A stretch of 32,238 bases of DNA from Chitinophagales bacterium. GTDB taxonomy: Bacteria > Bacteroidota > Bacteroidia > Chitinophagales > UBA2359. Below are positions 8,926 through 20,490 of the stretch, piece after piece. Position 1 is the first letter of the stretch; every line of letters starts with the position of its first letter. The notes under the pieces were generated by a model. The model did no database searches. It was not told the DNA's origin and saw nothing but the letters and a program-made list of their open reading frames with translations. The DNA lies in the NCBI GenBank assembly GCA_016787295.1, contig JAEUUX010000296.1, positions 1 through 32,238 of the forward strand, given 5' to 3'. A program made the position numbers and the translations under genes.

Positions 8926-11900
8926 TTATCGCATTAGGTACATTTTACCTAAGTTGTTTTCAAAAAAACGGTCGGCAGGTGTGTCATAGTGTTGCAAGGT
9001 CTGCCCATTTAGGTGGTTGGTTACTTTATAGAGGTATAGACCGTTGCCAAGTTTGTTTCCATATTGGTCTGTGCCGTCCCATGCAAATTCTGTTATGTTT
9101 TTGCCTATGTGAATGTTGCCTAATTCGGTGGTAGATATTTCGCGCACTACCTTGCCTGATACGGTCATTATTTGAATTCGGAGGTCTTGTGGGACTTCGG
9201 CTCCTGTTAGGGTGAAAACAAAACGGGTTGATGTGGTAAAGGGGTTGGGATAGTTGAGCAGGTTGGAAATGGCAGGGCGATTGTCTACTGTAAAGCTGAT
9301 TCGGTAGGCATCATTAGCAAAATTGTTGTTGCTTCGGTCTTTTGCTTCTACTTTTAGGACATGTGTGCCATCGGGTAGGGTTGGACGGTAGCTTATGGTA
9401 GCTATATTGTTGTTGTTGGTTGCGGCTTGGTCGGTGGCGGGCGTGAAGGTTATGTTAGGATTGTTGAAATAGATGCGTTGCTCAATAGACCATAGGTTTA
9501 GACTGTCTTTATTGACTAAAAATAGGCGATAATCGCTGGTGTCGTTTAGCTCAAGGTTTCGGTTGTCGTCCTTAATGCGAATATTAATGGTGGGTTTGGC
9601 GGCAATGAGTTCGCCGTCTATGATGTGTCTGCCATCAAAGGTAACGTCTATGTTGGGATTTATTTTGTCGGTTGTGACAAAGAATGGTAGGTACATGACG
9701 TTGTTAAACTTGAATTTTTCTATTTGTTCGTCGTTTGGATTAATGACAACTGCGAGGATATTGTGTCCAATCATGTTGTCGGTTGAATAAGAAAATTGGG
9801 CGGTAGTGGTGCTTTGTGGGTTGATAGGTGGGAGAGCGGGCGGCGTAAGTTGGTAAACTTGTCCGTTTTCGGTGGTTATTTGGTAGTGAATGTTGACAGA
9901 GTCGGTGGCGTGTATCTCGGGATTTGTGATGCTGTATAGCAATGAAAGGTCTTCGCCTTGATTTAGGGTGTCGTTGTAGAAAACAAACTGGTTGGTTAGG
10001 TTAATAGCCATTTCGGGGGCGCGATGGAACAAGACTCTCCAATGTTGTAGCTGCGGTGGGGTGTTGTTGATGGTATCTTTGGTGTTGAGTTGTAGGCGAA
10101 TGAATCGGTATTGGTTGGCAGCTATGGAGCTGATGTCAATGGGGCTGTTGTTGGTGGTGAAAAGTAGGGTTTCTTGGTTGTTTTGTATGCCAAAAACCTG
10201 TACAGTTTGTTCGTCAGCAGAGGGATTTTCGTGGGGTATTGTTTGCCATTCGACGGTCTGCCATTGTGTAGCGGGACCAATAAGGGGCGTTTTAAAGTTG
10301 CCATTGTTGGCGGTGGTGATGGGTGTGATATTGAGTGTTGTGGGTGCTTCAGGTGTGGCAGAGATGGTAGCTTGTCCGCTGTTGGGTTTGTTTTTGATGC
10401 CAAAAGCCACAAAAGCCTTGGAAGTGTCTAAGTTGTTGAGGTTGTTGATGCCCATTTGTGTAAAAAATTGCTCCAATATGTCAGAATTTGGGCTGTCGAA
10501 GCGGTGATTTTTTACACTATAGACAAGAACATAGTAGTCATTGGGGACAATGTTTTGGATAAAATTATTGATATTGTTCCAATGTTCAGGTGTTTCGTTG
10601 GGAAATTCAAAAACGTATTTGGTTGAGAAGTCGCAATGGATATTATTGTATTGTCCCAAACCATTGCAGCCAAATTGTTGGTTGATATTTTGTGATGTCC
10701 ATGGAGTTAAGGGGAAATTGGGTGGCATTATGGCAAAAGCAATGCCATTTGTGCAGGAGTTTTGGAGGCAAGTATTTTGCTGTAGGACTTGGTTGTTGAG
10801 CAGGAACTGTAGGTTTGTAACAGCGCCTGTTTGTCGAGGGTTGTGGAGGTAGAGGGTATTGGTGTCGGTGACGTATTGGAATTGACGGGTAATGGGATTT
10901 ATTTCGGTGTTGTTGTAGTTGTTGTAGTTGTATTGGTAGTAGTGGGATTGGTTCCAGCCTTCGCTGCTTGTTGGGAGATAGATGAAAGAGGTATTTTTCC
11001 AACGTTCGGCTTCTCCTACTGCTGCTTTTCGGGCTGTTCGCCAATAGTAGACTTTGTTTGGCTGATAGTTGATGTCGGGCTGCCATGTTAATACGCCACC
11101 AATACTATTTTGCTGGTGTGTTTTGAGGGCGGGACTGTTAAAGGCTTCGGTGGTGTCTATTTGGAAAACATAGTCGAGTGGTGTGAGGTGTGGCTGTCCT
11201 GTGGAGGCATATAGTGTAATGGGCGGGTTTTGTGTAACGATAGAAAAGTTGCAAGGCGCAATAGGAATTAACAAATCGGCAAAGATGTAGAAGGTGAGTT
11301 CGGCTTGGTTGTTGTCTTCGCAAGATTCGGCAATTTCGTTGTTGGCATCGATGGTAATTAGCAGTCGATTTTCGCCTGCTGCAATAGCGGGGTCGCCTGT
11401 TGTTATGTATATTTGAAGGGTATCGTTGTAGACGGTTGCGGGTATGTGCCTTTGGTAGGTTTGTTGTGTGCCGTCGGGGAGTGTTCTTTTGATTTGGAGT
11501 GAGAAAGAATCGTTGACTGCTTTGCCTAAGTTACTGACGTTGATTTTTACGAGAAAAGAATCTAAATCAGTGGTGAGGTTTTGGGGAAATAAACTGATGT
11601 CGGTTCGGTTTGTGTTGTTTTCGATGATGTATTCGGGCAGGTCAAAGGTGCGAAGTCGGAGTGCGGGGTCTCCTGTGAGGGTGTATTCTTGGGCTGTTAT
11701 TTTTGCGCCTTTGTCATTGAGATATTGTAGGCTGATTTCGCTGATGGTTTGCTGTATGGATTTGCCAATTCCGTCGGTATAGTTGTCGTCGCAAAAATTA
11801 TTGTAGAAACGGCTTAGATAAGCATACAAATAGGTGGGAAATCCAAGCGAGGCGGTGCCAAGAAAACCAATTGAACCCAAGTTGTCTGCAAAAACATAGT

Positions 11901-14007
11901 CTTCGGGGAGGGTTGTTATTTCGGGTCTGCCGTCGTGTATGTCGCCTACGGAACAAGAGCCTGTTATAAAGAAAGGAAATTTGCCGTAATTGCTGTATTG
12001 GTAGGGATTATTGAGATTGACGTTGAGGAGTTCGCCAGAAGAATGCCCAAAAAAGGTGATAAGGTTTAATCCTGGGTTAATGTATTCGTGCAAGTCTTCG
12101 TCTTCGATGACTTGTTCGGAGATTCTGTTGTAGGTATGTATGACGTTTCCGCCCATTAGTGTGTCTTCATAGATATTTTTGTAGGCATTGAGGGTGCTAA
12201 TGAATTCGTTGGACTCGCTTAGGTTATATCCCCCTGCAATATGTAGGGCATCTTTCATCCAAGTTCGGGCTTCGCGGGTGCAAGGTGCATTTTGGTATTG
12301 GTCTTCATAAAGCATTAGTTTGTCTAAGTATATTCGTACTTGTTCGCTGCTGCGCGCGGGAACGCGTCCTACGGCTAATTGTGGTACATACGTGATGTTG
12401 GTAGATGTGGCGAGCATTTCGTCGGAGGCAACATTGCCATAGGTGGGAACTAAGCAGCGTTCGTAGATGTCTGTTATGCCAAAATCTTTGTATGCTATGC
12501 CTTTTCCCAATAATAAAAGATAGTCGGGGTCTGTAGTCCACGTTTGGAAGCAATGATTGATGAAGTTTCGGACGGCTAAGGGGTGTTTTCTTATGCCATA
12601 GCTAAATTGGTCGTATAGTTCTTCGGTGTTGACGATGAGTGTTTGGTGGTTGCCGCCTGCTGTGGAGGCGCGGTAGTCGCTGTATCGCTGGACTTGGTCG
12701 ATGTCGCCGCTGCGGAGGCTTGGGTGTGTGAGAATGAGGTAGTTGCCTTGATTTTGGGTTAAGCTATAGTCGGTGAAATGGGTTGTTTGGAGTTGTGGGA
12801 GGTTGTACATATTTTGGTTGCAGACGGGCGAGATGGTGCCATAGTCGCAAATATTGTCGGTGTTGATGACGTATATTTTGCGTTTGGTGGCGGTGGTGCT
12901 GGCGGGTGGCAGTAAAAATTTGATTAAGCCTGCTTCAAGTGTTGGCGTGAGGCGAAGTTGGTTGGTGAGGTCATATACGATGGGATTGCTGCCTGCATTG
13001 AAGCTGCTCATCTCGATGTATTTTTCGGTGTTGTTGTCTATTTCGAAAAGAAAGGCTTTGGTATTACTAAAATTGTAGTTGTGTGGATAAGTGATGGTGG
13101 CATAAGCGAGGCAGTTTTTGTTTTGTTCGACATTGGGCATATTAACAGACTCAACATTTAGGACGGAATTAGGAGGTGTGAGAGTGTTAATGGGAACTTT
13201 GAATTGGTGTTGATTGAGTTGGTAGCCTTCGAAAGTTGTGTCGATGTATATGGTGTTGTTTAGTTTGATTTTTACATGGTGGTCGATAAGTGTGCCTAAA
13301 ACGTTGGAGCGTCCAATGATTTTGGTGTATACTCTGGCGCTGTCGGTGGTGTTGGTATAGATGTCTGGGGTTGGGAAATTGAAATCGGCGTTTTGTCCTA
13401 TATTGATGTCGGTGCTAACATAGCCTTCGCCCGCTTCAAAATCGGAAAGGTTGCGGTATATGCCTGAAATGGAGGCAGGAAGTCCTTCGTAATAGGCTGA
13501 AAGGCTAATGTTGATGGGGTTTGTGTGCCAAAAGTGGGTTTCTTTGGCAGGAGGGTTGCTGATATTGTTGTTGGTGGTGGTGTAACGTTTGTTGGGTTGG
13601 TCGGGAATGGTGGTTAGGAAGTAGGTAGTGCTGTCTGTAAACAAGCTTCTATCAGGGTTTGGTTGCCATTGTGGATAGATGTAGAGCTGTGTGTCGAAGT
13701 TGCCGTTGTTTTTTTCACCAAAAAACTCTATGTAGTCGTTGTTGGAGAAGGTGTTGTCGGTGGTTACGTAGATGGGAATTTCTTGCCCGTTTTTGTAGAG
13801 ACGAAAATGGCTGCCTGTGAGAGACAAAGTGGTGGCAGTTAAGGCTGTATAGGGTATTCTATACAAACCTGTTTTGTGGATTTTGACTTTGTAGTAGGTT
13901 TTAGTAAAGTCTATCCAAGCATCGGTGCTTTGGGCGGAGGTTGTGCTGGTGAATATGCAGCTCATGATGAGCATGGTGCATAGGTAGAAATAATTTAGGG
14001 CTTTCAT
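8926..14007 (-). CDS. porU2: PorU2-like C25 (gingipain-fold) peptidase/sortase with T9SS domain, copy A
   Basis: This 1693-residue secreted protein opens with a signal peptide (about 25 residues, ending STTSAQ). An N-terminal PorU-like domain follows (NGQEIPIYVTT, then DYIEFFGEKNNG). The C25 peptidase domain spans about 420-790, with the catalytic His in FFGHSS (H655) and Cys in TGSCSVGD (C685). A CARDB-like domain (about 810-910), a long beta-rich region and a C-terminal T9SS sorting domain (about 1580-1693, beginning NYPNPFTTSTRF, ending KMYLMR) complete it. Family knowledge: PorU removes the sorting domain from T9SS cargo and attaches the cargo to the cell surface. Proteins of this size and layout are called PorU2. 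A secreted gingipain-like protease is the alternative. Its paralogue lies upstream at 15415-20490. The coding strand is rich in A and C (Thr, Asn, Gln codons). No -7 box is visible within about 90 bases of the start. Confidence 0.8.
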   Translation of the reverse strand: MKALNYFYLCTMLIMSCIFTSTTSAQSTDAWIDFTKTYYKVKIHKTGLYRIPYTALTATTLSLTGSHFRLYKNGQEIPIYVTTDNTFSNNDYIEFFGEKNNGNFDTQLYIYPQWQPNPDRSLFTDSTTYFLTTIPDQPNKRYTTTNNNISNPPAKETHFWHTNPINISLSAYYEGLPASISGIYRNLSDFEAGEGYVSTDINIGQNADFNFPTPDIYTNTTDSARVYTKIIGRSNVLGTLIDHHVKIKLNNTIYIDTTFEGYQLNQHQFKVPINTLTPPNSVLNVESVNMPNVEQNKNCLAYATITYPHNYNFSNTKAFLFEIDNNTEKYIEMSSFNAGSNPIVYDLTNQLRLTPTLEAGLIKFLLPPASTTATKRKIYVINTDNICDYGTISPVCNQNMYNLPQLQTTHFTDYSLTQNQGNYLILTHPSLRSGDIDQVQRYSDYRASTAGGNHQTLIVNTEELYDQFSYGIRKHPLAVRNFINHCFQTWTTDPDYLLLLGKGIAYKDFGITDIYERCLVPTYGNVASDEMLATSTNITYVPQLAVGRVPARSSEQVRIYLDKLMLYEDQYQNAPCTREARTWMKDALHIAGGYNLSESNEFISTLNAYKNIYEDTLMGGNVIHTYNRISEQVIEDEDLHEYINPGLNLITFFGHSSGELLNVNLNNPYQYSNYGKFPFFITGSCSVGDIHDGRPEITTLPEDYVFADNLGSIGFLGTASLGFPTYLYAYLSRFYNNFCDDNYTDGIGKSIQQTISEISLQYLNDKGAKITAQEYTLTGDPALRLRTFDLPEYIIENNTNRTDISLFPQNLTTDLDSFLVKINVSNLGKAVNDSFSLQIKRTLPDGTQQTYQRHIPATVYNDTLQIYITTGDPAIAAGENRLLITIDANNEIAESCEDNNQAELTFYIFADLLIPIAPCNFSIVTQNPPITLYASTGQPHLTPLDYVFQIDTTEAFNSPALKTHQQNSIGGVLTWQPDINYQPNKVYYWRTARKAAVGEAERWKNTSFIYLPTSSEGWNQSHYYQYNYNNYNNTEINPITRQFQYVTDTNTLYLHNPRQTGAVTNLQFLLNNQVLQQNTCLQNSCTNGIAFAIMPPNFPLTPWTSQNINQQFGCNGLGQYNNIHCDFSTKYVFEFPNETPEHWNNINNFIQNIVPNDYYVLVYSVKNHRFDSPNSDILEQFFTQMGINNLNNLDTSKAFVAFGIKNKPNSGQATISATPEAPTTLNITPITTANNGNFKTPLIGPATQWQTVEWQTIPHENPSADEQTVQVFGIQNNQETLLFTTNNSPIDISSIAANQYRFIRLQLNTKDTINNTPPQLQHWRVLFHRAPEMAINLTNQFVFYNDTLNQGEDLSLLYSITNPEIHATDSVNIHYQITTENGQVYQLTPPALPPINPQSTTTAQFSYSTDNMIGHNILAVVINPNDEQIEKFKFNNVMYLPFFVTTDKINPNIDVTFDGRHIIDGELIAAKPTINIRIKDDNRNLELNDTSDYRLFLVNKDSLNLWSIEQRIYFNNPNITFTPATDQAATNNNNIATISYRPTLPDGTHVLKVEAKDRSNNNFANDAYRISFTVDNRPAISNLLNYPNPFTTSTRFVFTLTGAEVPQDLRIQIMTVSGKVVREISTTELGNIHIGKNITEFAWDGTDQYGNKLGNGLYLYKVTNHLNGQTLQHYDTPADRFFENNLGKMYLMR

Positions 14008-14393: not shown

Positions 14394-14557
14394 AGTGATA
14401 GTGTTCTGTGTTATTTGGTTTGTCGAAAAAAAGTTGTTTTTACTTTGGTAACGACATTATTAAGTGGTACTTATGAAAATAGCAACGATAAGAAAGTGTT
14501 CAAATAAGCTTTGAAAGGGTGATAGGTTTATGGCAAAAAAACGGAGCAAAAAAAGGT

Positions 14558-14675
14558 ATAAACCCCGATGGGGTGAAATGTGTCATGTTTTGTTGGATAA
14601 TGTGTCACCCCGTCGGGGTTTATGTTAATTATTCTATTATTTTGAGGCTATAAACTTGTCACCCCATCGGGGTTT
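14558..14675. repeat. Three more CCCC-N-TCGGGG palindromic elements
   Basis: ATAAACCCCGATGGGGTGA at 14558-14576 is inverted relative to TCACCCCGTCGGGGTTTAT at 14605-14623, so the pair can form one large cruciform. A third copy, TATAAACTTGTCACCCCATC followed by GGGGTTTTT, is at 14649-14677. They share the TATAAAC-TTGTCACCCC context with the elements at 7.8-8.5 kb. Confidence 0.8.
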
Positions 14676-14723
14676 TTATTATTTTGAGCTGGTAATCTTG
14701 TTAGTTAATTGGTTTGTTTTGAT

Positions 14724-14990
14724 GTTACCTTTCGCTAAAAAATATTGGCAAAAAACAAATTGAAATACTTAGCTTAAAGCCACATTTTACGCCTCAAATA
14801 CGTGAAAATAATGCGTAGAACGCTAAAATGCTGTCACTTTTGACCTATTTTTGTTGTAATAGGGCTTCAACAATACAATATATTGGTTAGCACATCTACC
14901 CATCTGAGTAAAAAAGTGCCCTTTCATGCTAAATGTAGCCTAAAAACACCCGAATCTTTTTTTCGAGTTAATTTTTTAGCGAAAGGTAAG
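14724..14990. mobile_element. MITE-like element with 19-bp terminal inverted repeats
   Basis: TTACCTTTCGCTAAAAAAT at 14725-14743 is perfectly inverted at 14971-14989. The 6-bp direct repeat TTTGAT flanks the pair at 14718-14723 and 14991-14996, one base outside each inverted repeat, as expected for a target-site duplication. The interior of about 225 bp has no coding frame, but imperfect symmetry continues inward (ACATTTTA-like and TAAATGT-like segments). This is the structure of a non-autonomous miniature inverted-repeat transposable element. No transposase with matching ends is in the window. Confidence 0.72.
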
Positions 14991-15136
14991 TTTGATAGTA
15001 ACAAATAACATCTTGATAAGGTTGTTATCGGATTGTCATTATCAAAATATCATTTCGCATTTGTCATTTTTTTAAAACAGCACAAGTTAAAACTACTTTT
15101 TAATGTTGTTATCAAACTGTAAAAGGATAAGGGTGT

Positions 15137-15260
15137 TTTTGTTCGAGTGGCGAAGCGCGTTAGGGATGCGGAGGGTGGCGTTAGCCAGTGCGTAGCTTGC
15201 GAAGCACCGCAGCGTAGCGAAGCCCGTAGCAGCCCGACCCGCAGGGGAACGCCCAAAAAA
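15137..15260 (-). repeat. ~125-bp dispersed GC-rich element, copy A
   Basis: On the minus strand it begins GGGCGTTCCCCTGCGGGTCG and ends in CGCTTCGCCACTCGAACAAA. It matches the plus strand at 22696-22818 at nearly every position except a central block of about 20 bases. It is clearly more GC-rich than the DNA around it. A chance 68-codon frame crosses it. It lies in the 3' region of porU2 copy B, just beyond that gene's terminator. Confidence 0.85.
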
Positions 15261-15324
15261 TATTAATGTATTATTATTGGGTTATTTAACTCAAATGGAT
15301 TGCTATTATTGTTTGTTTAATTAG

Positions 15325-15414: not shown

Positions 15415-18400
15415 TTATCGGACAAGATACATTTTTCCTATACCATTTTTGAACATGCTGTCTATGTTTTGGTTGTCATAGTGGTCGAGTTCTTTCTGGT
15501 CTAATTTGGCTATGATGCGGTATAGGTATAAGCCGTTGGCTAATGGGCTGCCAAATTCGTCTGTTCCGTCCCAGCGGTATTGTGTAATGTTTTTGCCGAT
15601 GTAAAGCGGGCCGAGTTCGTTTTGAGTTATTTCGCGCACGACTTTTCCGCTTGGTGTAAAGATTTGTATTCGGAGGTTTTGGGGTATGGAGCTACCTGTG
15701 AGGGTGAATACAAACTGTGTGGAGGTGGTAAATGGATTGGGGTAGTTGAGCATATTGGATATGGCGGGCTTGGTGTCGATTTCAAAGTCTATTTGGTAGG
15801 CTTTGTTGTTGCTGGCAAAGTTGTTGCTGCTTCGGTCGCGCGAACGGATGTAGAGTCTGTAGGTGCCGCTTTGGGTGAGGGTGGGTGTGAATATGACTTT
15901 GGCAATGTTGCTCTGGTCGGCGGCATTTTGTTGGGTTGCGGGTGTGAATTGTAGGTTTGGATTGTTGAAGTAGATGGGGATAGTGGTGTTGTCGGATAGT
16001 TTTGTGAGGTAGATTTGGTAGGTTGCGGTGTCGTTGAGGGCGAGGTATGGGTTTTCGTCTTTGGTTGTTATTTGGATTTGGGGCTTTGCGGATACTATTT
16101 CGCCGTTGGCGATGTGTCTGCCGTCGAAAGTTACGTCGATGGTAGGGTTAATTTTGTCGTTGGTTACAAAGAAAGGAATGATAAGGACGTTGTTGAAGCG
16201 GAATTTTTCGAGTTGGTCGTTGTTGGGGTTGACTTCCATGACTAAGTAGCAGTTGCCTGAGAGTCCTTCGGTGGAATAGTTCATGGCTGTGATGATAGAT
16301 TGTCCTGCGGGGACGGGGGCTTGTCGGGGTATTGGCAGGACGTGTGCGACGTTGTTGGCATCTATAAAAGTGTATTTGATTAATACGCTGTCCATGTTGA
16401 CGCTGCTAACGTTGGTTAGTCCTATTTCGAGGGTGAGGTTTTGTCCTTCTTGGAGGGTGTCGGATCGGAAAAGGAAGTGGTAGGCTTTGTTGAGGGCAAG
16501 CTCGCCTGCCATGTCGTGGAGTATGCGCCAATGTTGTAGCTGCTCGGCGCTTTGATAAGTGGAGTCTGTTACGATGGCTCGGAGTTGGATATAGGGATAT
16601 TGTATGGCATCAATGCTGCTGATGTCGGTGTCGACGGGCTGGTTGATGGTCATCAATAGGTTTTGGTTTCCGTTGGTGTCTTTGCCGTAGATTTGTATGT
16701 CTATGTTATCGGCTTCGGGTGTATTGAAGATGTTGTGTTGCCATTGTAGGGTTTTCCATTTGTGAGAAGGGCCGATGAAAGGAGAGGTTATTGTGCCATA
16801 AGGATTAGGAAGGGCGACTTGTGCTTCGAGGTTGATGATTTCGTTTCCGACAGCGGTGACGATTTGTGCGGGATATTCGGCTACATTTTTTCGTCCAAAG
16901 CCAATAAAAGCGGTATTGCTGCTCAAATTGTTGATGGGAGACATGCCCATTTGCTCGAAAAAGGCGTGAATTTGGGGTAGGTAGTTGAATATTGGCTCGT
17001 TGGGGTCTGTGGTGCCGAGGCGGTGGTTGGCGACGCTGTAGACAAGGACGTAGTATCCGTTTTCTATGATATTGTTCATCACATTGACCATCGCATCGAG
17101 TTGTTCGGTGGTGCCTGTGTGAAATTCGAGGGCATAAATAACGCCGGGAGAGCATTGTACGTTGCCATAGGTGCCGCGCCCGTCGCAACCTGTGAGGGTG
17201 TTTTGTTTGGTGGTCGGCATGGGGCTAAGAGTGGGGCCTGGTTTGTAGACAACGAAGACGAGTCCGCCGTTGCAGGTGCTTCCAAAGAGACAAGAGTTGA
17301 TCGATGTTGTGCTGGCTACGTTGTAGGTGGATTGGATAGCGCTGGGATTTGAGTAAGCGTTTCGGGCTTGTATGAGGTTGATGTTGTTGTCGAAATGAAA
17401 TTTGCGGGAAGTTGAGTCGAGTTGCATTTGATAGTATTGGTCGTTTTTGAATTGGTAATAGTGTGATTGGTTCCAACCTGTTGGGGAGTCGGGTTTGTAG
17501 ATAAATGAGCTATTTTGCCAATTAAAACTGTCGCCTGGATTGGGGATTTGGCTTGTTCTCCAGTAGTAGACGGTGTTTGGCAATAGAGGCGTTGTGGGAG
17601 TCCATTGGACTACGCCTGATTCGCTATTCTGGACGTTTTGACGAAACAAGGTGCTGTTGAATAAAGCGGTGGTGTCTAACTGAATGATATATGGCAGGGA
17701 GGCTAATAGGGGTTGTCCTGTGGAGGCTTTAAGTGTGGGCAATGGGTTGTTGATGATGGTATAGTTGCAGGGGGCGACGGGGACGAGGAGGTCGTTGAAT
17801 ATAAAGGTATTTACTTTGGCAATGTTGTTATCTTCGCAATCTTCGGTGGCTTCGTTGTCGGAGTCGATGAAAACTTCTATTTCGTTGTCGCCTGCGGCTG
17901 CTTGACGGTCGCCCATTTGTATGTAATAGAACAAAGTATCGGTGTTGAGGGGTGCGGGTCGGCGGTCTGTGTGTGCAATAATGCTTTGTCCGCTGGGCAG
18001 TTTGCGGGTTATTTTGATGTTGATGGAATCACCTGTTGCTTTGCCAATGTTGGTGACAATGACGCGGACTGCGAAGGAGTCGAGGTTAACAGTGATTTGC
18101 TGGGGAATGAATGTGACATCTGAATAACCATTGTTGTTGGCTTCGATGATGTATTCGGGCTTTTGCCAAGGAGCTACTTTGAGGGCAGGGTCTCCGATGA
18201 AGGTGAATTCCATAGATGTTAGCTTCACGCCTTCGGAAGTTGGGTTGATATTGACATTGTATTCAATGCCTTTTGTAAGACATTTGCCAATGGATTCGCC
18301 GTAGTTGATTTGACAAAATTGTTGGTATAGCTGGTCTACATAAGCATCCATGAAAGCGGGGAAGCCAAAGGAGACTGTGGCTAAAAAGCCGATGGCTCCG

Positions 18401-20490
18401 CGCCGTTCGGCGAACAAAAAGTCGTTGGGCATGGCATTGCCTTCGTTGTGAACATTGCCCACAAAGCAGGAGCTGGAGAACATGAAAGGATATTTGCCTT
18501 CGTTGTCATATTCGGCGGGCGGGTTTAGGGCGACGTTCCAGTAGGGTTGAGAAGAGTGTCCGATAAAGTTAATAATGTTTAACCCGTTATTAATGAGGGG
18601 GGCGATGGTGGGAATGGAGAGGGAGTCTAATCCGGGCGTTGCTAAGGAATAGGTATAAACGACGTTGCCGCTAATGAGGGTGTCTTCGTAAATATGTTTA
18701 TAGCGATTGAGGAAAGAAAGGAAGCTGTTACTTTCGCTAATGTTGTTGCCTCCTGCTATGTGGAGGGCATTTTTTCGCCAGAGTCGGTCTTCTTTGGTGC
18801 AGGCAGTTGGTGTTTCTGTTTCAATGACTTTGTCCAAATAGATGCGTACTTCGTCGGTTGTTCTGGCAGGAACACGCCCTACGCCAATTTGTTGTCGGTA
18901 GTTGTCAATGCTTCGGGCGGCTAAGGTGGCATCGGAAGGGTGCCAGCCATACGTGGGGACGGTACAAAGGGCATAATTGGTTGGATTGAAACGGGTGCGG
19001 TCGTATTGTATGGCTTTGCCAAGCAGTAACATGAGTTCGGGTTTTGTTGCCCAATTGTCTAAGGCATAGTTGACAAATTTTTGGATGCTAAGTGGGTGTT
19101 TTTCTATGCCCCAAGCAAATTGGTCGTATAAATCGTTGATGTCAGCCACGACTACTTTGTAGGCGCCGCCCTGCGCACTGCGGCGATAGTTGGCGAAACG
19201 TTCTACTTGGTCTATGTCGCCCAAGTGTAAGCTGGAGTGGCTAATGATGAGGTAGTTGCCTTGATTAGAGGCTTGGCTATAGTCGGTAAAATGGCGCTCA
19301 TGTAGGGTATTGACGGACTTCACGACAGCGTTGTCGGTGCTGCTGATATATAAACGGCGCAGGGTGCTGGGGTTGTTGCCCGCTTGCAACAATACGCGGT
19401 AGATTGTTTGTCCGCTGGCGTTGGTACTGACTTCGGGCAGGTAGCGTTGTTGGTTAGTGAGGTCGTATAAAACGGGAGCCGTTCCGCCATTGAAATTAGT
19501 GATTTCTAAGTATTTTTGTGTGCTGTTGCTTATTTCGAAGGTAAAATTGGTAGTGTTTTCAAAGTCGTAGCTGTGTGGATAGGTGAGGTAGATATAGGCA
19601 ACTTGGTTTTTGTCGACGGGAGCGATGTCGCCCACAGAAGTGAAAGTGAAAACGGTATTGCCAGTTGGGTTGAGCTGCGTAATAGGCACATTGAATTGAA
19701 AATTATAGTTGGTATAGCCTTCGTAGGTGGTATCTTTGTAGATTGTTCCTGCGATGTCGATTCGTAGATGGTGGTCGGGGATAGATGTGCCAGAGTCGGA
19801 GTTGCCGCAAACGCGCGTAAGGACGTGGGCATTGCCTCCTGCGGCTTGGTAGAGGGATTTGGTGGCAACATTATAGTTTTTGCTGTCACCTTCGAGAATG
19901 GTTGTGCCTGTGAAGCCTTCGCCATTGTCAAAAGTGGAATAGAAATTGGGAATACCACCTAAGTTGCGGAAAGATTCGCCGGGATAGTAGACGTTGTTCA
20001 GAATTTGGCGGCGTGTATAGGGAAAGTGGGTTTCAACGGTGGGTAAAGTGCCGTTAAGGTTGTTGTCGATGGGAGTATAGCGGGTGTTGTTGGTATATTC
20101 AGGAGCAGCAACGAGGTAATAGGCGCTCGTGTCGGTGAATAAACTTTTGTAGACCGAAAGTTGCCAATTGGGTTGGCTAAACAATTGAGAGTCGTATTCG
20201 CCATCGTTGGTTTGTCCGAAAAACTCTATATAGTCGGTGTCGCTAAAATTGCCGTTGGTGGAACTCCAGATAGGGATTTCTTGCCCTTTGTAGAACATTT
20301 TTAGGTTTTGGGCGTTATTGGGCAGCCCATTAGCGGCAAGTGTGGCAGCCGATATGCGATGAACAGCGTCGCTGCCCACTTTGATTTTGTAGTAGGTTTT
20401 GCTATGGTCTATCCATTGGTTGGGATTTTGTGCCAATAAAACACAACTCGTCAAGAGTGCATATAGGGTGTATAATATACTTTTTTTCAT
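15415..20490 (-). CDS. porU2: PorU2-like C25 peptidase/sortase with T9SS domain, copy B
   Basis: This 1691-residue protein is colinear with copy A but clearly diverged, so the duplication is old. It has a signal peptide (MKKSILYTLYALLTSCVLLA, cleaved near AQ), an N-terminal PorU-like domain (AVHRISAATLAANGL, GQEIPIW) and a C25 domain (about 410-780) with catalytic H645 in FIGHSS and C675 in SSSCFVGN. A CARDB-like domain (VRVIVTNIGKATGDS), a beta-rich stretch and a C-terminal sorting domain from about 1577 (NYPNPFTTSTQF) ending KMYLVR complete it. Both catalytic residues are intact. It lies 162 bases after the PorV2-like gene on the same strand, which fits the known PorU-PorV partnership in the T9SS attachment complex; co-transcription is likely. 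An ordinary secreted C25 protease cannot be excluded. Confidence 0.82.
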   Translation of the reverse strand: MKKSILYTLYALLTSCVLLAQNPNQWIDHSKTYYKIKVGSDAVHRISAATLAANGLPNNAQNLKMFYKGQEIPIWSSTNGNFSDTDYIEFFGQTNDGEYDSQLFSQPNWQLSVYKSLFTDTSAYYLVAAPEYTNNTRYTPIDNNLNGTLPTVETHFPYTRRQILNNVYYPGESFRNLGGIPNFYSTFDNGEGFTGTTILEGDSKNYNVATKSLYQAAGGNAHVLTRVCGNSDSGTSIPDHHLRIDIAGTIYKDTTYEGYTNYNFQFNVPITQLNPTGNTVFTFTSVGDIAPVDKNQVAYIYLTYPHSYDFENTTNFTFEISNSTQKYLEITNFNGGTAPVLYDLTNQQRYLPEVSTNASGQTIYRVLLQAGNNPSTLRRLYISSTDNAVVKSVNTLHERHFTDYSQASNQGNYLIISHSSLHLGDIDQVERFANYRRSAQGGAYKVVVADINDLYDQFAWGIEKHPLSIQKFVNYALDNWATKPELMLLLGKAIQYDRTRFNPTNYALCTVPTYGWHPSDATLAARSIDNYRQQIGVGRVPARTTDEVRIYLDKVIETETPTACTKEDRLWRKNALHIAGGNNISESNSFLSFLNRYKHIYEDTLISGNVVYTYSLATPGLDSLSIPTIAPLINNGLNIINFIGHSSQPYWNVALNPPAEYDNEGKYPFMFSSSCFVGNVHNEGNAMPNDFLFAERRGAIGFLATVSFGFPAFMDAYVDQLYQQFCQINYGESIGKCLTKGIEYNVNINPTSEGVKLTSMEFTFIGDPALKVAPWQKPEYIIEANNNGYSDVTFIPQQITVNLDSFAVRVIVTNIGKATGDSINIKITRKLPSGQSIIAHTDRRPAPLNTDTLFYYIQMGDRQAAAGDNEIEVFIDSDNEATEDCEDNNIAKVNTFIFNDLLVPVAPCNYTIINNPLPTLKASTGQPLLASLPYIIQLDTTALFNSTLFRQNVQNSESGVVQWTPTTPLLPNTVYYWRTSQIPNPGDSFNWQNSSFIYKPDSPTGWNQSHYYQFKNDQYYQMQLDSTSRKFHFDNNINLIQARNAYSNPSAIQSTYNVASTTSINSCLFGSTCNGGLVFVVYKPGPTLSPMPTTKQNTLTGCDGRGTYGNVQCSPGVIYALEFHTGTTEQLDAMVNVMNNIIENGYYVLVYSVANHRLGTTDPNEPIFNYLPQIHAFFEQMGMSPINNLSSNTAFIGFGRKNVAEYPAQIVTAVGNEIINLEAQVALPNPYGTITSPFIGPSHKWKTLQWQHNIFNTPEADNIDIQIYGKDTNGNQNLLMTINQPVDTDISSIDAIQYPYIQLRAIVTDSTYQSAEQLQHWRILHDMAGELALNKAYHFLFRSDTLQEGQNLTLEIGLTNVSSVNMDSVLIKYTFIDANNVAHVLPIPRQAPVPAGQSIITAMNYSTEGLSGNCYLVMEVNPNNDQLEKFRFNNVLIIPFFVTNDKINPTIDVTFDGRHIANGEIVSAKPQIQITTKDENPYLALNDTATYQIYLTKLSDNTTIPIYFNNPNLQFTPATQQNAADQSNIAKVIFTPTLTQSGTYRLYIRSRDRSSNNFASNNKAYQIDFEIDTKPAISNMLNYPNPFTTSTQFVFTLTGSSIPQNLRIQIFTPSGKVVREITQNELGPLYIGKNITQYRWDGTDEFGSPLANGLYLYRIIAKLDQKELDHYDNQNIDSMFKNGIGKMYLVR

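Follow-up and report, generated by a model that had tools for sequence, protein, structure and literature searches.

Between two large tandem genes of a draft Chitinophagales genome lies a short stretch with inverted ends and no gene, which raises the question of whether it is a mobile element and, if so, what moved it. The window, that is, the whole stretch of 32,238 nucleotides analysed here, contains a pair of long minus-strand genes (8926-14007 and 15415-20490) whose products, proteins of ~1690 aa, carry Peptidase_C25 (gingipain/PorU-type) domains together with an FlgD_ig-like C-terminal domain that, in the second protein, falls below the Pfam cut-off. This agrees with the original prediction, which had placed a MITE-like element between two copies of porU2.

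The element and its inverted ends

The MITE spans 14724-14990 (267 bp, unstranded), well within the short length (< ~600 bp) typical of such elements, and has no transposase gene, zero open reading frames of at least 80 aa overlapping it. It contains a perfect 19-bp inverted repeat, TTACCTTTCGCTAAAAAAT at 14725-14743 with its exact reverse complement at 14971-14989, which is kept in the other copies and is the sole perfect inverted repeat of at least 19 bp with arms 50-400 bp apart anywhere in the 32-kb window; simulated windows (first-order Markov, 20 runs) contained a mean of 0 perfect inverted repeats at ≥14 bp. The exact inversion is thus as predicted, although the arms are separated by 227 bp and not by the 228 bases first given. 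The outermost pair of bases is C..G in most copies and a G..G mismatch in the window copy (GTTACC..GGTAAG), so that the true ends lie one base beyond the perfect match. The MITE ends read CTTACCTTTCGC / CTTGGCTTTCGC; in the window, the left terminal inverted repeat occupies 14724-14743 on the plus strand (GTTACCTTTCGCTAAAAAAT; family consensus CTTRSCTTTCGCTAAAAAAT) and the right one 14971-14990, reading CTTACCTTTCGCTAAAAAAT on the minus strand.

Far from being unique in its genome, an outcome that the original prediction had named as counting against a transposon, the element has many related copies. A whole-genome search (5.42 Mb, 296 contigs) identified 19 other places with MITE loci, giving a genome total of ~20 copies or pieces, of which nine others are full-length or nearly so (~10 full copies counting that in the window) and ~9 are fragments; a search with the end pattern returned the same set. 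These copies are dispersed, with flanks unlike each other except for the pairs L001/L002 and L008/L014, and 15 of the 16 examined are intergenic (outside open reading frames of at least 90 codons). Identity among the full-length copies, that of the window included, is 80-94%, and since they are so diverged, most of the insertions look old, a reading that the sequences favour; a single pair at 99% identity (L004/L005) suggests a later event. As a side observation, L008 and L014 have a common flank on one side (GAGTTTATTAAACTTTA..AAACACAAAGTTATTCRTAT), suggestive of a segmental duplication or of a third repeat serving as target.

Two contigs, C170 and C32, terminate 2 bp into a MITE copy, so that repeats are missing from the assembly, as expected of a repeat that breaks short-read assembly, and a third contig, C131, terminates mid-copy. 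The biological weight of the family is modest: it causes such breaks in assembly and adds variation to intergenic regions, in this window to the one that separates two large C25-peptidase genes. The MITE was absent from all 39 relatives examined (family and order), a search of 395 genomes of the phylum with the MITE body returned only chance-level pieces of 33-36 bp outside its own genome, and the plasmids searched had no match to it. An exact 16-mer of the MITE end, sought in 85,000 genomes, gave 76 scattered matches in unrelated phyla, which is about chance for so short a word.

Insertion into a second repeat family

The window MITE sits within another interspersed repeat (14444-15116, unstranded; ~400 bp without the MITE), of which there are at least 40 copies of ~343-408 bp (window, L002 and L200-L229 among them). 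In 30 paralogous host repeats that lack the insertion there is a single target, ...GTTTTGATARTAACAAATAACA... or ...GTTTGGATAATAACAAATAA..., where the window reads TTTGAT-[267 bp]-TTTGAT. BLAST alignments to nearly all uninterrupted host repeats stop at 14723 and restart at 14991, and the boundaries of the MITE (14723/14724 and 14990/14991) are therefore defined independently of its inverted repeats. Flanking TTTGAT repeats had been predicted, and the same alignments place them directly outside the 267-bp element, at 14718-14723 and 14991-14996 (both unstranded), where uninterrupted host repeats have one TTTGAT-like site. These paralogous empty sites, of the kind that the original prediction had proposed to look for, prove the insertion. 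More generally, an insertion nested in a high-copy repeat provides its own empty-site control when a close relative is unavailable.

Four copies are bordered by exact 6-bp duplications that are unrelated in sequence, namely TTTGAT in the window, TTGTTA at L002, AATTAA at L003 and TTGCCT at L009. At L006 the duplication is 5 bp long, at two full copies (L008 and L010) none can be recognised, and the left end of L007 is damaged. L002 represents a second, independent insertion into another host-repeat copy. Two of the ten full copies (L001 and L002) lie in the same 400-bp repeat, in different copies of it, a few bases apart and in opposite orientation.

The host repeat, too, is MITE-like and has 3-bp ANT target duplications. 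In the window its ends are TTTGGTAACGACATT / TTTGATAACAACATT, with a 3-bp ACT duplication directly outside TTG..CAA, and across the family they read TTTGATARCGACATTATTARGTGG / TTTGATAACGACATTAAAAAGTAG. The A-N-T duplication outside TTGATA..TATCAA matches in 18 of 24 copies, against a mean of 6 and a maximum of 13 for shuffled partners. Terminator-like palindromes, ACCCCRTCGGGGT, occur within the host repeat at 14607-14619 and 14661-14673. A G+C-rich block (GTTCGAGTGGCGAAGCGCG...CCCGACCCGCAGGGGAACGCCC) adjoins it at 15137-15299 of the window and recurs beside the copies L202, L205, L209 and L210.

End sequences and the source of the transposase

We then sought IS1634 transposases across the order and scored the ends of the elements that encode them. 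The published consensus for the IS1634 family gives ends of the form C-----YT and direct repeats of 5-6 bp (PMC2266710, Table 1), and the MITE fits it both in its end, CTTACCTT..., and in its duplications (6, 6, 6, 6 and 5 bp in the five copies with a recognisable one, two full copies having none). A complete IS in the genome G181, whose protein combines PF14104 (DUF4277) with PF01609 and reaches 199 bits against NF033559 (cut-off 100 bits), has the ends CTCACGTTTCGCGCAAAA and is flanked by the 6-bp duplication ATCAAG; IS copies in G172 have the ends CGGTCTTTTCGCG and 5-bp duplications. In G017, which belongs to the same family as the window genome, the stop codon of a 458-aa IS1634 transposase fragment (172.9 bits against NF033559) is immediately followed by AAAATAGGCGAAAGCCAAG. 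The terminal 12 bases of this sequence exactly match the left end CTTGGCTTTCGC of five MITE copies (L004, L005, L008, L010 and L016). By a rough estimate the chance of this identity is ~2.5e-5, for an IS that is truncated by a contig end and of which one terminus was compared. Cyanobacterial relatives of this IS clade, on Nostoc and Tolypothrix plasmids, have the ends CTCACCGTTCGCGCAAT / CTTACCGTTCGCGCAATC. Set side by side, the end of the IS1634 transposase gene in the same-family genome reads GGCGAAAGCCAAG, and complete IS1634 relatives have the ends CTCACGTTTCGCGC (with a 6-bp duplication) and CTCACCGTTCGCGC. Insertion sequences with the same ends, which the original prediction had proposed as a check, are thus present in relatives.

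On the basis of its ends and duplication length, we place the MITE in the DUF4277 clade of the IS1634 group, a likeness that consists of ~12 terminal bases and the duplication length, its interior being unrelated to that of any IS seen. Like the IS1634 elements of the DUF4277/PF14104 clade (G181, G172, G017 and the Nostoc/Tolypothrix plasmids), it has a terminal motif near CTYACCKTTCGC, the C-----YT pattern and a duplication of 5-6 bp; it differs from them in having an unrelated interior and lacking a gene, whereas they are 1.5-2 kb long and encode a transposase. The MITE is real and of an ordinary, known kind, IS1634-type and nested in a second MITE-like repeat. Its gene-free layout had been predicted and is backed by the copies, the 6-bp duplications and the paralogous empty sites; a repeat that was at first unnamed now has a family and a mechanism, the additions being the IS1634 assignment and the nesting inside a second repeat family.

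What is observed is that the element is dispersed in multiple copies with precise boundaries and 6-bp duplications, that its target also exists empty and that it has an end sequence in common with the IS1634-family elements of relatives; we infer that a transposase of the IS1634 clade acted on it in trans. It seems very probable (roughly 0.9) that the element is a 267-bp non-autonomous DNA transposon whose ends are acted on by an IS1634-family (DUF4277-clade) DDE transposase, with 6-bp staggered insertion. Under this mechanism, a transposase with an N-terminal DUF4277, encoded by a larger element, would bind and cut both ends, CTTRSCTTTCGC, and would excise or copy the MITE, which would then enter new, mostly intergenic, A+T-rich sites, the 6-bp stagger at insertion giving rise to the 6-bp direct duplication.

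A MITE usually has, though it does not strictly require, an autonomous partner with matching ends in its own genome, here an IS1634 element. The 296-contig draft contains no intact IS of the matching IS1634 clade, and a PF14104 search of the assembly gave zero matches. The only IS1634-family fragment in the genome, C203 (336 aa), belongs to another clade, at 48% to G163 against 22-25% to members of the matching clade, and lacks the MITE ends, and contigs C116, C131, C5, C29 and C135 have end-like matches with no transposase nearby. We infer that this genome no longer carries the parental IS or that the draft assembly lacks it. A comparable case is MITECca01 of Cardinium (PMC9769881), which is likewise shorter than 300 bp, mostly intergenic, confined to one lineage and without a gene, with inverted ends of an IS family; that family, however, is a different one (IS982), and its parent IS is present in its genome, whereas here none was found. 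It is a tentative suggestion, and a rather doubtful one, that this MITE family, with its IS1634-type ends, has persisted here after its parent IS disappeared and that it prefers a second MITE family as its target.

The missing partner IS leaves some room for mobilisation by a different IS family whose ends look similar, in which case the resemblance to IS1634 would be coincidental. The genome does contain DDE_Tnp_1 transposases (IS4, ISAs1 and IS701-like), and these were considered as parents, but none of their loci has the ends of the MITE. Nor do the duplication lengths agree, those of ISAs1 elements being 8-9 bp. For IS4 they are 7-13 bp by subgroup and for IS701 4 bp (PMC2266710). Together with the 12-base identity to the G017 terminus, directly after a transposase stop, and the agreement of three further clade members and of the 5-6 bp duplication rule (PMC2266710), these observations make mobilisation by another family improbable.

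Folding of the element and variation of its ends

Both strands of the MITE fold better than shuffled sequences (z -3.0 and -5.8), the minus strand far more so (-5.8), and the element has a terminator-like hairpin at 14968-14948, features which, with its mostly intergenic copies, might point to a dispersed structured RNA or regulatory element, such as an sRNA or terminator cassette, and not to a transposon. We consider this highly improbable, since compensatory changes occur in only two of the 78 consensus pairs (76 have none; covariation term negligible at -0.24), an Rfam search of the MITE gave nothing at gathering score, clean 6-bp duplications and empty sites require an insertion mechanism, and a strong fold is largely an automatic outcome of perfect ends. 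Conservation as a structured RNA, which the original prediction had set against a transposon, is thus not what these data indicate, and we read the fold of the transposon as a consequence of its inverted ends and local hairpins. The imperfect symmetry that had been described as continuing inward is weak only, the excess of folding lying chiefly in the ends and in small local hairpins.

The ends themselves vary between copies. In several MITE copies they are unlike, with CTTGGC on the left and CTTACC on the right, and in L002 both carry one private change (CTCACC / GGTGAG); the ends may have been made alike through conversion or repair.
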